A DNA stretch of 64,000 nt from Phycisphaerales bacterium. Its GTDB lineage: Bacteria; Planctomycetota; Phycisphaerae; Phycisphaerales; UBA1924. The position numbers and the translations under genes were made by a program. Every line of letters starts with the position of its first letter. Position 1 is the first letter of the stretch. The notes beneath the pieces were generated by a model. The model saw nothing but the letters and a program-made list of their open reading frames with translations. It did not search any database and was not told where the DNA came from. Shown piece by piece: positions 3,195 to 41,430 of the stretch. The stretch spans positions 1-64,000 of the forward strand of contig JAJDDC010000102.1 of the NCBI GenBank assembly GCA_029260515.1, given 5' to 3'.

Positions 3195-3660
3195 CGCCCG
3201 ATCGTAGTCTCCAAACGCCCCCGCACTCCTCGCACACCGCGACGTCCGGAGCCGTCTCTGGCAGACGGGCATTGCAGGAAGGGCACAAACCGTGGGCCAA
3301 ACGGCAGCGGGCCTGTCCGATGGCGCCGCCGATCGAACCCGCACGAGCCATCCCAAAAAGGCCCACCCCCAGCGCAACGAACGGCAGCGCGATGGGAGAC
3401 AGCGCGATCAACGCCGACGAACTCGATGCCGCAACTTTCAGCAACAGTGCAGTCAGAAGAAGCGCGACAAGAAATCCAATGAATGCGCCCGCCAACCAGC
3501 GAACTGCGCCGGCACTGTGCCGCCGCTCGTCCTCATGCAACCACTCTCCCGCAGTCGTACCGTCAAACAATCGCTTGGACACGCAGTAGGGGATCTTCCG
3601 GCGCTGGTCCGATTCATCCGTGACCTCCACCCCGATGAACCGCCGCTTGGGATCACGCAT
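3184..3660 (-). CDS. Membrane-anchored zinc-ribbon protein A (fifth of five paralogs)
   Basis: Unknown function. The 158-aa protein has a basic N-terminal segment, two membrane segments (about 55-77 and 87-105) and a C-terminal zinc ribbon CPSC-x13-CEEC followed by GGVWRL. It is the last and most divergent of five tandem paralogs; its ribbon spacing is 13 rather than 16 residues. The ATG at 3660 overlaps the stop of paralog B in the string ATGCGTGA, and its own stop overlaps the mqnD start, so translation is probably coupled throughout. Two-membrane-segment proteins ending in CxxC...CPECG are frequent in Phycisphaerae but have no assigned role. Confidence 0.8.
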   Translation of the reverse strand: MRDPKRRFIGVEVTDESDQRRKIPYCVSKRLFDGTTAGEWLHEDERRHSAGAVRWLAGAFIGFLVALLLTALLLKVAASSSSALIALSPIALPFVALGVGLFGMARAGSIGGAIGQARCRLAHGLCPSCNARLPETAPDVAVCEECGGVWRLRSGDDD

Positions 3661-10303: not shown

Positions 10304-11911
10304 TCAGACCCGCGCCCGCGCCCACCCGCCCTGCACGAACCGCGCGCTGAATATCAGCGACCGCAGCGCAACCTCCCCGCACAGCGCGATCCACATCCCC
10401 ACCAGCCCCCAGTCCACCGGCGACGGGTTCTCCAAGAACCGCCCCCCGCCCAGGGGGATGTCCACCCCGCTCAGCAGGTACGCCGCGGGCAGGCGGATCG
10501 CGTACGTCGCGATCCAGCTCAGCCACATCACCACACGCACGTCCCCCGCCCCACGCAACGCCCCGCGCACCACGATCGTCACCGCGAACGGCGTCTGGAT
10601 CACCCCGCACACCACCAGCAAGTCCGGTGTCGTCAGCATGTGCTCGGGCTGATCGCTCAGCACCGACACGATCCATTCGGGCACACTCACGAACGCCACG
10701 CCCAGCAGGCTCATCACTACAGCCGCGACCATCGTGCACCTGATCACCGCACGGCGCGCAAGCTTCGCGCTTCCCGCGCCCAGATACTGGCCCGCGAGCG
10801 TCGCGGCCGCCGTCCCCAGCGCGAACCCGGGCAGGAAACTAAACGACTCGATCCGCACCGCGATGATGTGCGTCCCCAGTTGTCCCCCGGCGTCCCCCGC
10901 CGCAAGCGCCGCCGCCCCGAGCCACCCCACCATCACCATCACCAGGAAGTTGCCGACCCACATCCCGAGCGACTCGAGAAAGTTCGGCAAACCGAGCCGC
11001 ACCAGCCGCCGGACCGTGTGCCAGTGTGGCCTCAGCCACCGCGCCTTTAGCCGGATCCCCCACCCCCCGCCCAGCGCCATCCACACGATCATCCCCGCCG
11101 CGACCAGATCACCCGCGACCGTCCCGACCGCGATCCCCGTCACCCCCAGGTCGAACCCGAACGGGTTCTCGAGCACCATCTCCCGCACACCCCCCTCGCC
11201 CGCCCGCGTCATGTCGTACCCCGACAGCGCGTAGCTCACCAGGATGTTGACGATGTTCCGCACCGTCATCGCGATCAGAGGGCGTTTGGCGTCCCCCGCC
11301 CCGCGCGAGCACGCCGCCAGCACGAACAACACCGACGCCCCGGGCACGCCCAGCGAGATCACAAGCATGTACCGCTCGAACGCAGCCCCCGCCCCGGGCG
11401 TCATGTTCAAGAGCCACGTCACGACCGGCGCCCCCACCGCGACGACCGCCCCCACGCCGATGCCCGCGACCACCGCCAGCGTCGCCGCCTGCCCGAGCAC
11501 CGCGTTCGCGACCCCCACACGCCCGCGCCCGACCGACCGCGCGATCAACGCCGTCGCACCCACGCCCAGCGCCATCACCACCAGCCCGATGAACCACATG
11601 ATGTAGCTGGCGCCCCCTATCGCGTCGGTCTCATCGACGCCGAGCCCCGCCGCAAGCTTCGTGTCCGTCAGCCCCACCAGCGAGTTCAGGAAGCTCTCGA
11701 GCGTCACAGGCCACGCCAGCACCCACACCGCCCCCCACATGCTCAGGCCCGCGAGCTTCCCCGACTTGAGCCGCCCGTCTGGCGTCAGCCCCCCCCCGCC
11801 CCGACGCACCCCCCCGCCCCGAACCGCCGGCCCCTCGGTCAGCTCGACCCGCTCACACTCCAGCGGCTCGATCCGCCCGCCCTCCGAACTTTCCCCCGGC
11901 TCACGCCCCAT
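10304..11911 (-). CDS. MATE family efflux transporter
   Basis: Polytopic inner-membrane exporter of the MATE (NorM/DinF) family, 535 aa, about 12 membrane segments in two homologous halves. Recognisable pieces are LAWPVTLESFLNSLVGLTDT at the first helix, GVGATALIARSVGRG, and in the second half the matching GTAAATLAGQYLGAG and RGALRGAGDVR. Substrates are probably drugs or small cations driven by Na+ or H+. The ATG at 11911 is chosen because GGAGGG lies 8 bases upstream. The N-terminal 60 residues are hydrophilic and Gly/Arg-rich, longer than in characterised homologs. Confidence 0.9.
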   Translation of the reverse strand: MGREPGESSEGGRIEPLECERVELTEGPAVRGGGVRRGGGGLTPDGRLKSGKLAGLSMWGAVWVLAWPVTLESFLNSLVGLTDTKLAAGLGVDETDAIGGASYIMWFIGLVVMALGVGATALIARSVGRGRVGVANAVLGQAATLAVVAGIGVGAVVAVGAPVVTWLLNMTPGAGAAFERYMLVISLGVPGASVLFVLAACSRGAGDAKRPLIAMTVRNIVNILVSYALSGYDMTRAGEGGVREMVLENPFGFDLGVTGIAVGTVAGDLVAAGMIVWMALGGGWGIRLKARWLRPHWHTVRRLVRLGLPNFLESLGMWVGNFLVMVMVGWLGAAALAAGDAGGQLGTHIIAVRIESFSFLPGFALGTAAATLAGQYLGAGSAKLARRAVIRCTMVAAVVMSLLGVAFVSVPEWIVSVLSDQPEHMLTTPDLLVVCGVIQTPFAVTIVVRGALRGAGDVRVVMWLSWIATYAIRLPAAYLLSGVDIPLGGGRFLENPSPVDWGLVGMWIALCGEVALRSLIFSARFVQGGWARARV

Positions 11912-34110: not shown

Positions 34111-34232
34111 ACTGCGGCGGTGTGTACACCGGAGCGCGCGGGGCGTGTCGGCGTGATCTGGACCCGTCGCTGACGCTCCGGGCTCGTTGATGCGCGCACG
34201 CGACGAACCCATTTGGGTGGGCATCGCACGGG

Positions 34233-34269
34233 CACAAAAAGAACCCCCCGGGACGGGTGTCCCGGGGGG
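34233..34269 (-). terminator. Terminator after the dockerin-tailed secreted protein
   Basis: Perfect 10-base stem, CCCCCCGGGA and TCCCGGGGGG, loop CGGGTG. On the minus strand it is followed by TTCTTTTTG. It lies 60 bases after the stop of the gene at 34329-35621. Confidence 0.88.
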
Positions 34270-34328
34270 CGTTGGGGTCAGATCCGAGTCAAACAGATGG
34301 ACTCAGAGGCTTGTAGACGGATGCCGTA

Positions 34329-37426: not shown

Positions 37427-39883
37427 GTGAGCGATCCATCACTCTTTGCACACGAGGGTTCGGCGGACGATTCGCCCGACGCGGCGTTGGGCGAGGGGGA
37501 GGTGTACGCGCGGGTCGCCGTCGAGCGCGCGATCGAGGGCGAGGCGGGCGAGGGCCTGCTGTACAGGGGCGAGGGGCTGCGGGTGGGCGACCGGGTCGAG
37601 GCGCCCCTGGGGCGGGGCAACAAGACCGCCGGCGGGATCGTCGTCGCGGTCGGGGGCGCGGAACTGCTGGCGGGATTCGACCCGAGGCGGGTCAAGGCGG
37701 CTGCGGGCACGGGGCGGGGGTCGCTGCGCCCGGCGCTGGTCGAGCTGGCGCGGTGGATCAGCTCGTACTACGTCACGCCCCTTGGGACCGTGCTCGCGAC
37801 GATGACGCCGGCGGCGGTGAAGGCGGGGACCGGGCGAAGGACGCGGGTGTGCGTCGAGCCGACGGAGCTACCTGCTCCCGCACCACGGCGCCCGGGTGAC
37901 GAGCCCCCGGCGCGAGCCGGGGGAACCGGGGGCGGCGGGCATGGTTCGGGTCCCCCAGCTTGCGCTGGGGGCTCGTTGGAGGGGGGGTTGACGCCCAGCG
38001 TGCGGGCGGCGCTGGAGAAGATCCGGGCGCTGCCGGCGTCGGCGTTCCCGGTCGAGGCGCGGGAGCTTGCGCGGCTCGTGGAGGCGCCCAACGCGGGTCC
38101 GATCAACAAGCTGGTCGCGGCGGGGTACCTGCGCGAGGTCGAGGTGCGGACGGTGCGGGCGCCCGAGGCGTTCTGGGAGTCGAGGCGGGTCGAGGCGGCG
38201 CAGAGCCGTGTGGTCGAACCGACCGTTGCGCAGTCGGCGGCGATCGGGGGGATCGGGGGCTCGCTGGGCTCGTTCGGCGTGCACCTGCTCCGGGGCGTGA
38301 CCGGGTCTGGCAAGACGGAGGTGTACCTGCGGGTGATCGAGCGGGCGCTGGAGGCGGGCAGGACGGCGTTGGTGCTGGTGCCGGAGATCTCGCTGACGCC
38401 GCAGACGGCCGGTCGGTTTATCGACCGCTTCGCGGACCACGGCGTGGCGGTCCTGCACTCGGGTCTGACGGCATCGACGCGGCACAAGCAGTGGGCGGCC
38501 GCGGCGAGCGGGGACGCGCGTGTGGTCGTGGGTGTGCGGTCGGCGGTGTTCGCGCCCTTGCCGGGGCTTGGCGTGATCATCGTCGATGAGGAGCACGACT
38601 CGTCGTACAAGCAGGACCAGGCGCCGCGGTACCACGGGCGGGACGTGGCGATCAAGCGGTCGCAGATCGAGGGGTGTCCGGTGGTGCTCGGGTCGGCGAC
38701 GCCGTCGCTGGAGAGCTGGCACAACGCGTGGAAGGGGCGGTACCGGTTGTGGGAGTTGCCCGAACGCGTGGGTGGCGGGGCGATGCCTCGGGTCCAGATC
38801 GTGGACCTGGGCGCGGAGCGGCGGCTCCGCCGATCGCTCGACGGGCGCGACCCGCACGTGCTCGACGCGATCGGGCCGACGCTCGAGCGGGCGATCGACA
38901 CGACGGTCCGCGCCGGCGGGCAGGTCATCCTCTTGCAGAACCGGCGGGGGTACGCCGGGTACGTCGCGTGCCCGGACTCGACGTGCGGGTGGCGGCTCGA
39001 GTGCACCGAGTGCGACGCGACGATGGTTGTGCACCGGGCGGGCGCGCGCAGGGGGTATGTCCGCTGCCACCACTGCCTGGCCCAGCAGCTGCGCCCCGAG
39101 GTCTGCCCGGCGTGCGGCAAGCGGCTGATCGACCTGAGCGTGGGCACGCAGCGGGTGGAGGAAGAACTCGAACGCCGGTTCGGCACAACGCTGGGCCTGA
39201 TCGCGGGCGAGACGATGGCGCGGGTGGACTCGGACACGATGGGCAATGCCCGGGCGTACTTCGACGTGCTTGAGCGGTTCGGCAGGGGCGAGCTCAGGCT
39301 GCTGCTGGGCACGCAGATGATCGCGAAGGGGCTCGACTACCCGGGCGTGCGCCTCGTGGGCGTGATCAACGCGGACACGGCGCTGGGGCTTGCGGACTTT
39401 CGCGCCGGCGAGCGGACGTTCCAGCTCGTGTCGCAGGTCGCGGGGCGGGCGGGGCGAGGGGCGGAGACGGGTGTCGTGATCGTGCAGACGTTCGCGCCCG
39501 AGGAGCCGGCGTTGACGCGCGCGGCGTCGCACGACGCGGTCGGGTTTGCGCGCATGGAGCTGGAGACGCGGGTGCGGGCGGGGCTGCCGCCGGCGACGCG
39601 GATGGCGCGGGTTGTGGTGCGGGACGAGGACCTGGACAAGGCGACGGATCTTGCCGAGCGGATCGTTGTCGCGCTCAAGCAGAGCGCGGGCGAGGGTGTG
39701 TGGGTGGACGGGCCGTGGCCGTGCGCGATCGCGCGGGTCGCGGGGCGGCACCGGATCGGGATCGACGTGGTCGCGCCCGACGCGGGGCGTCTGCGCACGA
39801 CGCTGACCGCGGCGCGGGCGGCGGGGCTACTGACGAGCGACCGCCAGGTCGCGGTGGACGTGGACCCGGTGGCGCTGCTCTAG
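37427..39883 (+). CDS. priA: Primosomal protein N' (replication restart helicase PriA)
   Basis: 818-aa superfamily 2 helicase that reloads the replisome at stalled forks. In order: 3'-DNA-binding domain (about 26-110), winged-helix region (about 188-245), helicase with Walker A GVTGSGKT (290-297), DEEH (387-390), GSATPSLESW, the Zn-binding cysteine cluster (CGWRLECTEC, RCHHC, CPACGKRL, about 510-565), and the C-terminal GLDYPGVRLVGVINADT and QVAGRAGRG motifs. Residues about 151-187 (PRRPGDEPPARAGG...SLEGG) are encoded by an in-frame palindromic repeat in the linker between the first two domains. The GTG at 37427 is chosen; another at 37502 is possible. Confidence 0.95.
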   Translation: MSDPSLFAHEGSADDSPDAALGEGEVYARVAVERAIEGEAGEGLLYRGEGLRVGDRVEAPLGRGNKTAGGIVVAVGGAELLAGFDPRRVKAAAGTGRGSLRPALVELARWISSYYVTPLGTVLATMTPAAVKAGTGRRTRVCVEPTELPAPAPRRPGDEPPARAGGTGGGGHGSGPPACAGGSLEGGLTPSVRAALEKIRALPASAFPVEARELARLVEAPNAGPINKLVAAGYLREVEVRTVRAPEAFWESRRVEAAQSRVVEPTVAQSAAIGGIGGSLGSFGVHLLRGVTGSGKTEVYLRVIERALEAGRTALVLVPEISLTPQTAGRFIDRFADHGVAVLHSGLTASTRHKQWAAAASGDARVVVGVRSAVFAPLPGLGVIIVDEEHDSSYKQDQAPRYHGRDVAIKRSQIEGCPVVLGSATPSLESWHNAWKGRYRLWELPERVGGGAMPRVQIVDLGAERRLRRSLDGRDPHVLDAIGPTLERAIDTTVRAGGQVILLQNRRGYAGYVACPDSTCGWRLECTECDATMVVHRAGARRGYVRCHHCLAQQLRPEVCPACGKRLIDLSVGTQRVEEELERRFGTTLGLIAGETMARVDSDTMGNARAYFDVLERFGRGELRLLLGTQMIAKGLDYPGVRLVGVINADTALGLADFRAGERTFQLVSQVAGRAGRGAETGVVIVQTFAPEEPALTRAASHDAVGFARMELETRVRAGLPPATRMARVVVRDEDLDKATDLAERIVVALKQSAGEGVWVDGPWPCAIARVAGRHRIGIDVVAPDAGRLRTTLTAARAAGLLTSDRQVAVDVDPVALL
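37898..37978. repeat. Family-3 palindromic element inside priA
   Basis: 81 nt (27 codons). Two hairpins, CCCCCGGC-GCGA-GCCGGGGG and CCCCAGC-TTGC-GCTGGGG, lie within outer arms CGAGCCCCC and GGGGGCTCG. It is read in frame as part of residues 157-184 of PriA. A second copy lies at 39924-40003, in the same orientation. Confidence 0.85.
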
Positions 39884-39923: not shown

Positions 39924-40003
39924 GACGAGCCCCCGGCGCGAGCCGGGGGAACCGGGGACCGTGTGTGTTCTCGGGTCCCCTCGCTTGCGCGAGGGGCTCG
40001 TTG
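39924..40003. repeat. Family-3 palindromic element, intergenic copy
   Basis: The same architecture as the copy inside priA: GACGAGCCCCCGGC, hairpin, spacer, TCGGGTCCCC...GAGGGGCTCGTTG. It lies in the 206-bp gap between priA and murD. Confidence 0.85.
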
Positions 40004-40089: not shown

Positions 40090-41430
40090 ATGGGCGAGTT
40101 CGACGGGCAACGCGTGGTGGTGATGGGGCTCGGGCGCTTCGGCGGGGGGCTGGGCGTGGCGCGCTGGCTGGCGTCGCAGGGCGCGGACGTGCTCGTGACC
40201 GACAAGGAGCCCGAGGCGAGGCTGCACGAATCGGTCCGGGGGCTGCGGGCGTTGGTTGACGCAGGGCGGATCGAGCTGCGCCTGGGCGAGCACAACGTCA
40301 GCGACTTTACGACGTGCGACATGGTTGTGGTGAACCCCGGCGTGGCCAAGCCCTGGGACAACCGGTTCGTGCGCGCTGGCGAGGCGAGCGGGGCGCGGGT
40401 CACGACGGAGATCGCGTTGCTGTGCGAGCGGCTGCCCTCGCGCGAACGCGTGATCGGCGTCACCGGCACGAGCGGCAAGAGCACCACCGCGTCGATGATC
40501 CACCACGGGCTGGGTGGGATGGGCGTGCGGTCGCATTTCGGGGGCAACATCGGCGGGTCGATGCTCGAGAATCTGGGCGAGGTGCGCGCCGAGGACTGGG
40601 TGGTCCTGGAGCTTTCGAGCGCGATGCTCCACTGGCTCGGGCGCGAGCCGGCGGCGCCCGCCCCGGGCGTCGCGGTCGTGACCAACTTCGAGGCAAACCA
40701 CATCGACTGGCACGGCTCGATCGAGCACTACGAGCAGAGCAAGCGGCGCCTTCTCGACATGCAGGCTGCCGGGGATCGCGCCGTCATCGGCCCGGGCGTG
40801 CACGCGTGGGTGACGAGCCCGGGCGTCGAGCGGATCGAGATCGACGCGGGCGAGGGCGTGGGCGGGTGTGTGCTGCCCGGGGCGCACAACGCGCTCAACG
40901 CGGAGGTCGCGGCACGGGCGATCGGGGCGGCGCTCGGACGCGGGCGTGTTGACGAGGCGCGTGACGCGGTCCGGTCGTTCGCGGGACTCCCCCACCGACT
41001 GCGTCTGGTGCACGAGGTCGGGGGCGTGCGTGCGTACGATGATTCCAAGTCCACGACGCCCGCCGCGACGCTGCTGGCGGTCGAGGCTGTCTCCGGCGCG
41101 ATCGACAACGGCGAGGCGGGCGTGCACCTGATCGCGGGTGGGTACGACAAGGGCGTGGACTTGTCTGCGATCGCCGCGCTGGGCGACCGGATCGGCGGGC
41201 TCTACGCGATCGGGCAGACCGGCGGATCGCTTCTGGGCGGGTCCAACGCGCTGGCGTGCGGCACGCTCGAACGCGCGGTGGGCGAGGCGATGGGGCGTGC
41301 GAAGAACGGCGACGCGGTTCTGCTGAGCCCGGGGTGCGCGTCGTGGGATCAGTTCGAGAACTTCGAGCAGCGCGGCAGGCGATTCGCCGACCTGGTGCGG
41401 GGCGCGGGCGGGCGGAGGCGGACCGCGTGA
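40090..41430 (+). CDS. murD: UDP-N-acetylmuramoylalanine--D-glutamate ligase
   Basis: Adds D-glutamate to UDP-MurNAc-L-Ala in peptidoglycan synthesis, 446 aa. The N-terminal VVVMGLGRFGGGLGVARWL domain, the ATP loop VIGVTGTSGKSTTASM (about 118-134), ILNAxNFEANHIDWHGS and the C-terminal DDSKSTTPAATLLAV and LIAGGYDKGVDLS motifs identify it. It shows that this lineage makes peptidoglycan precursors. No other mur gene is adjacent. The ATG has TAGGAT exactly 6 nt upstream. Its stop overlaps the next GTG by GTGA. Confidence 0.95.
   Translation: MGEFDGQRVVVMGLGRFGGGLGVARWLASQGADVLVTDKEPEARLHESVRGLRALVDAGRIELRLGEHNVSDFTTCDMVVVNPGVAKPWDNRFVRAGEASGARVTTEIALLCERLPSRERVIGVTGTSGKSTTASMIHHGLGGMGVRSHFGGNIGGSMLENLGEVRAEDWVVLELSSAMLHWLGREPAAPAPGVAVVTNFEANHIDWHGSIEHYEQSKRRLLDMQAAGDRAVIGPGVHAWVTSPGVERIEIDAGEGVGGCVLPGAHNALNAEVAARAIGAALGRGRVDEARDAVRSFAGLPHRLRLVHEVGGVRAYDDSKSTTPAATLLAVEAVSGAIDNGEAGVHLIAGGYDKGVDLSAIAALGDRIGGLYAIGQTGGSLLGGSNALACGTLERAVGEAMGRAKNGDAVLLSPGCASWDQFENFEQRGRRFADLVRGAGGRRRTA

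Follow-up and report, generated by a model that had tools for sequence, protein, structure and literature searches.

Rickettsia palindromic elements (RPEs) are palindromes that lie in frame within genes and have a preferred reading frame. The insert described here fits that description in being a palindromic element in frame within a protein gene; the two intragenic copies in this genome, in contrast, are read in different frames. REPINs (Bertels and Rainey 2011, PMC3116915) consist, as does the present element, of two inverted REPs in a unit of ~80 bp that is dispersed and mostly extragenic, and here, as there, a Y1 transposase gene is flanked by the same REPs. The foot of those REPINs is GTAG rather than the CGAG found here, and the copies here are few (eight); in this genome one REP pair encloses the transposase gene, an arrangement that recalls the hypothesised IS200-like ancestor. 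In the part of Di Nocera et al. (2013, PMC3733652) that we drew on, intragenic REP dimers of the GTAG and CGTC superfamilies keep the frame in uvrA, recB, dnaE2 and other genes, many of the intragenic REPs are in replication and repair genes, ~20-30 amino acids are encoded, and survivorship is discussed. Frame-keeping intragenic REP insertion has been known since 2013, and the case in priA, which likewise has REP dimers in a gene with the frame kept, is a clean further example; priA is not among the genes named in that part of the paper, and the foot here is unlike those of both superfamilies. Class 3 TnpAY1 transposases, according to the authors who described them, may stand midway from insertion sequences to REP systems (PMC6006769, 2018).

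A REPIN in frame within priA

The window, the whole stretch of DNA that was analysed, comprises 64,000 nucleotides (C102:1-64000) of a 3.83-Mb Phycisphaerales MAG (G000). Positions 37898-37978 are a REPIN that lies in frame in priA, and a second REPIN follows the gene:

37427-39883, plus strand: priA, replication restart helicase PriA, 818 aa, putative start (TIGR00595 and Pfam)
37898-37978, plus strand: REPIN in frame within priA, 81 bp, PriA residues 158-184
37899-37976: core unit ACGAG...CTCGT, 78 bp
37899-37923, plus strand: left REP in priA, ACGAG foot and hairpin CCCCCGGC-GCGA-GCCGGGGG, pattern match with 0 mismatches
37952-37976, minus strand: right REP in priA, inverted, ACGAG foot and hairpin CCCCCAGC-GCAA-GCTGGGGG, pattern match with 0 mismatches
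39925-40001, plus strand: second REPIN, 77-bp core, 80 bp with flanks, intergenic
39925-39949, plus strand: left REP of the second REPIN, with the same sequence as its counterpart in priA
39977-40001, minus strand: right REP of the second REPIN, with a different stem, CCCCTCGC-GCAA-GCGAGGGG

The 81-bp span is made up of the 78-bp core with a semi-conserved G before it and TG after it, and the core is laid out as ACGAG-CCCCCGGC-GCGA-GCCGGGGG-AACCGG...CGGGT-CCCCCAGC-TTGC-GCTGGGGG-CTCGT. Each REP combines a CGAG foot with a stem of 8 bp and a loop of GCRA, and the two are arranged head-to-head. The preliminary description had placed an 81-bp palindromic element correctly at this position: its arms (37899-37928 and 37947-37976) form an inverted repeat that is 87% complementary, and the closely spaced, inverted REP pair is predicted to fold into one long hairpin both as RNA (-66.1 kcal/mol, z = -7.0) and as single-stranded DNA (-35.2, z -6.1). 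The window contains four matches to the REP pattern, whereas shuffled sequence would give 0.06, and an Rfam search of the region returned no match. No direct repeat flanking the priA element is apparent by eye; insertion of IS200/IS605 elements leaves no flanking direct repeat. The priA reading frame runs unbroken through the element, although, the source being a MAG, misassembly at short repeats keeps a small probability.

A near-identical 80-bp copy had also been reported at 39924-40003. The copy is indeed present, 40 bp past the priA stop, but only its left 35 bp are identical to the copy in priA, and identity over the whole is only 86% because the spacer and the right REP differ. Downstream of it, the next ORF, at 40090, is one that we take to be MurD-like. 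This second copy, 2 kb from the first, would represent an independent insertion into the usual type of site, just past a stop codon.

Copies in the genome and a REP-bracketed transposase gene

Further copies of the element and a REP-type Y1 HUH transposase gene, both of which the preliminary description had proposed to look for, were found in the genome. Copies were counted by searching with the motif ACGAGCCCNNNGCGCRAGCNNNGGG and by similarity. The motif has 18 perfect matches, dispersed over several contigs, and at one mismatch or fewer a comparison with a reversed control pattern gave 10 + 10 matches against 0 + 0. Eight short head-to-head pairs, with cores of 77-95 bp (77 in five, 78 in two and 95 in one), account for fifteen of the perfect REPs and one degenerate partner. 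These REPINs are thus dispersed, multicopy and mainly extragenic: two are intragenic, and inspection of ORFs placed the remainder between ORFs or near gene ends, with one assignment unsure. Membership in the known REP superfamilies was considered and rejected. The feet of the priA REPs and of all copies found by similarity are ACGAG or a close variant, with no GT[AG]G as in the GTAG superfamily; the CGTC superfamily has a CGTC end motif and stems that start with A-T, whereas the stems here start with C-G and the reverse complement of the foot is CTCGT.

A further REP pair, measuring 563 bp end to end, encloses a gene:

G000:C60:10483-11045: REP-bracketed span, with REPs at 10483-10507 (plus strand) and 11021-11045 (minus strand)
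G000:C60:10526-10990: Y1 HuH transposase ORF between these REPs, 155 aa, with NHVH, WT and YVSRFQ

Identification of the product as a Y1 HuH transposase rests on profile score, HuH motif, catalytic tyrosine and fold. It scores 31.3 bits against Pfam Y1_Tnp (PF01797; cut-off 23) and 28.3 bits against the NCBIfam RAYT model NF047646, which is below the curated cut-off of 80; against the NCBI IS200 equivalog it also falls below cut-off. Residues H90, H92, W129 and Y150 are invariant across 16 relatives, and its AlphaFold model (mean pLDDT 86.7) is matched by Foldseek to the IS200, IS608 and ISDra2 TnpA proteins and to the RAYT-REP hairpin complex 4er8, with E values from 4e-6 to 9e-5. REPs of the type that makes up the REPINs are found on both sides of this Y1 (RAYT-like) transposase gene. 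Because the inner tails of the REPs that flank it (GGGGAACCGG and CCGGGTCCCC) are similar to those of several short REPINs, the short REPINs look like the transposase unit without its gene, that is, like non-autonomous versions of it.

By published signature rather than by clustering, the transposase resembles class 3 TnpAY1 (PMC6006769). It shares with these proteins NHVH, W[TA], Y----Q, a length of ~155 aa and a planctomycete host, and the associated repeats, which for class 3 are termed "atypical secondary structures", are in both cases multicopy hairpins with a non-GTAG foot. The foot is CnGA in class 3 and CGAG here, and the segment from Y to Q reads YV[VI][AENY]EQ there and YVSRFQ here.

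The genome also holds a second, related Y1 transposase gene (C60:77252-77707), bracketed by head-to-head REPs of a second family (G000:C60:77178-77777). A single REP of this second family, ACGAGCCCGGAGCGTCAGCGACGGG, lies at 34163-34187 of the window (minus strand), ~50 bp after a stop codon, and downstream of it there is a terminator-like hairpin at ~34245-34272. REPs of the same type as those in priA occur in 18 to 78 copies in relatives G005, G010, G011, G012, G016, G023 and G036, with one copy in the same-genus genome G001 and none in the same-genus genome G002, a patchy expansion. Directly downstream of priA in G016, a genome of a different genus, there is again a REP pair, but arranged tail-to-tail, the reverse of the order here (L065, about 3495-3575).

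The PriA linker and the reading frame of intragenic copies

The protein that carries the insert is a clear PriA, scoring 540 bits against TIGR00595 (cut-off 230) and containing the Pfam domains PriA_3primeBD, DEAD, Helicase_C and PriA_C. A codon of the priA ORF begins at 37898, such that the element encodes residues 158-184 (DEPPARAGGTGGGGHGSGPPACAGGSL). PriA_3primeBD spans residues 51-128, and in the AlphaFold model residues 146-189 are coil, followed by the first helix of the next domain (winged helix), in agreement with the earlier placement of the insert in the linker between the 3'-DNA-binding and winged-helix domains. In that model pLDDT falls below 50 exactly at residues 158-183, which is in part expected of a segment that all aligned relatives lack. 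The insert is accordingly, as modelled, ~26-27 extra amino acids in a predicted disordered linker, with the priA frame intact. Its GC content by codon position (0.81/0.85/0.70, versus 0.75/0.54/0.92 for priA) lacks the pattern of the host gene, which would suit a recent insertion. A search of the literature on tolerance of the PriA linker to change found nothing.

Comparison with relatives places the insertion in this lineage. The REPIN is absent from PriA in all 26 relatives that were aligned, each with an open PriA frame and including the same-genus G001, and the translation of PriA from the same-genus G002, read by eye, also lacks it. The corresponding linker segment measures 86 aa here, 59-60 aa once the REPIN is subtracted, and 51-78 aa (mean 57) in the 26 relatives. 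The preliminary description had named comparison with the PriA of close relatives as a check, and conservation of the segment in distant PriA with non-palindromic DNA as the outcome that would speak against an inserted element; the segment proved absent from PriA of every relative compared. Since the closest relatives compared are only ~63-68% identical in PriA, the exact empty site and insertion point are not fixed to the base. A scan of GTDB 220 named genomes returned no PriA closer than 54%, the relatives so found being Phycisphaerales (Planctomycetota).

The second intragenic copy lies in a permease gene:

G000:C70:255804-255898: 95-bp REPIN, lying in frame where an ArsP_1-type permease has a variable loop (Cys-rich in relatives)

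The G001 homologue, 77% identical, has no such copy. The REPIN in the permease gene is read as TSPRRKPGD..., as opposed to DEPPARAGG... for the copy in priA, and because the two are read in different frames no particular peptide is conserved or under selection. Nor is an open frame through a REPIN remarkable, since five or six of the six frames are stop-free in every short copy. The modal REPIN length is 77 bp and that of the priA copy 78, a one-in-three coincidence; the frame is retained in priA because a working PriA requires it, the chance being one in three per insertion. Retention of frame is survivorship, not the mark of a selected peptide, and the earlier hint of selection for frame stands in the former sense only.

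Long ORFs that cross REPs in the relatives proved mostly spurious in Pfam scans. A clear case is found in G016, in which two tandem REPs lie in frame within a glycosyltransferase group 1 domain (...VPSLARGARQDLDPSLARGALRK...; L264 1501-1561), and a possible one in G011, in which a lone REP-like hairpin lies within the N-terminal domain of the apolipoprotein N-acyltransferase gene, lnt (L165 1501-1525).

Origin of the insertion and its meaning

We consider it very probable that the REPIN was spread by a transposase of the same genome, that its insertion into a tolerant linker of PriA is specific to this lineage, and that the second copy is independent. The element would then be a non-autonomous, hairpin-forming mobile element of two head-to-head REPs, spread by the IS200/IS605-like single-strand cut-and-join reaction of a HuH Y1 transposase (RAYT/TnpAREP-like, of the class-3 type). 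It would have moved as single-stranded DNA, with the class-3-like transposase working in trans on both hairpins and their CGAG feet, and would have entered the priA linker after the lineage split from its same-genus relatives; mobility is judged here from presence and absence among relatives. The priA copy would have survived in that a length of 78 or 81 bp leaves the gene in frame, the phase in which it entered was stop-free, and the linker tolerates ~26-27 residues, probably without effect on fitness. Rather doubtful, by comparison, is the broader proposal of a single element that is mobile to this day, with the REP-bracketed, class-3-like transposase gene as its autonomous form and the 77-bp REPINs as its non-autonomous form, an intermediate on the way from IS200-type insertion sequences to domesticated REP/RAYT systems whose copies enter priA and other essential genes where a linker tolerates them.

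An insert that kept its frame and both its hairpins, with an RNA fold of -66 kcal/mol (z -7), might instead be a selected protein module or regulatory device, the linker or an mRNA hairpin tuning the activity or amount of PriA; in the part of Di Nocera et al. (2013, PMC3733652) considered here, intragenic REPs are often in replication and repair genes, and altered activity is speculated upon. We find this improbable, as the element is present in one lineage only and shows no codon adaptation, the other gene hit in the genome encodes a permease, the copy there specifies an unrelated peptide from a different frame, and, with nearly every frame open in each copy, an open frame comes cheaply. Less probable still, to the point of being hardly credible, is that the palindrome is a pair of transcription terminators or attenuators, rather than a mobile repeat, in two copies that arose by local duplication. 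The downstream copy does occupy the place expected of a terminator, after the stop codon, and the identical left 35 bp would suit duplication; yet by eye no T run follows either hairpin, one copy lies within a translated gene, and the copies differ in right REP and spacer. Moreover, at least 18 perfect REPs, most of them paired head-to-head, occur on several contigs, and a REP pair of the same kind has a transposase gene inside it.

A replication-restart gene thus joins those in which in-frame REPIN insertion is known to be tolerated. On the preferred reading, the insertion in priA is also tied to one particular transposase of the same genome, from a class that has been little studied. The layout seen here, with one kind of REP pair placed around a transposase gene or else around a spacer of <30 nt, is as predicted by the view that REPINs descend from the ends of IS200-like elements. 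The priA site may also serve as a simple test case for the neutrality of such insertions.
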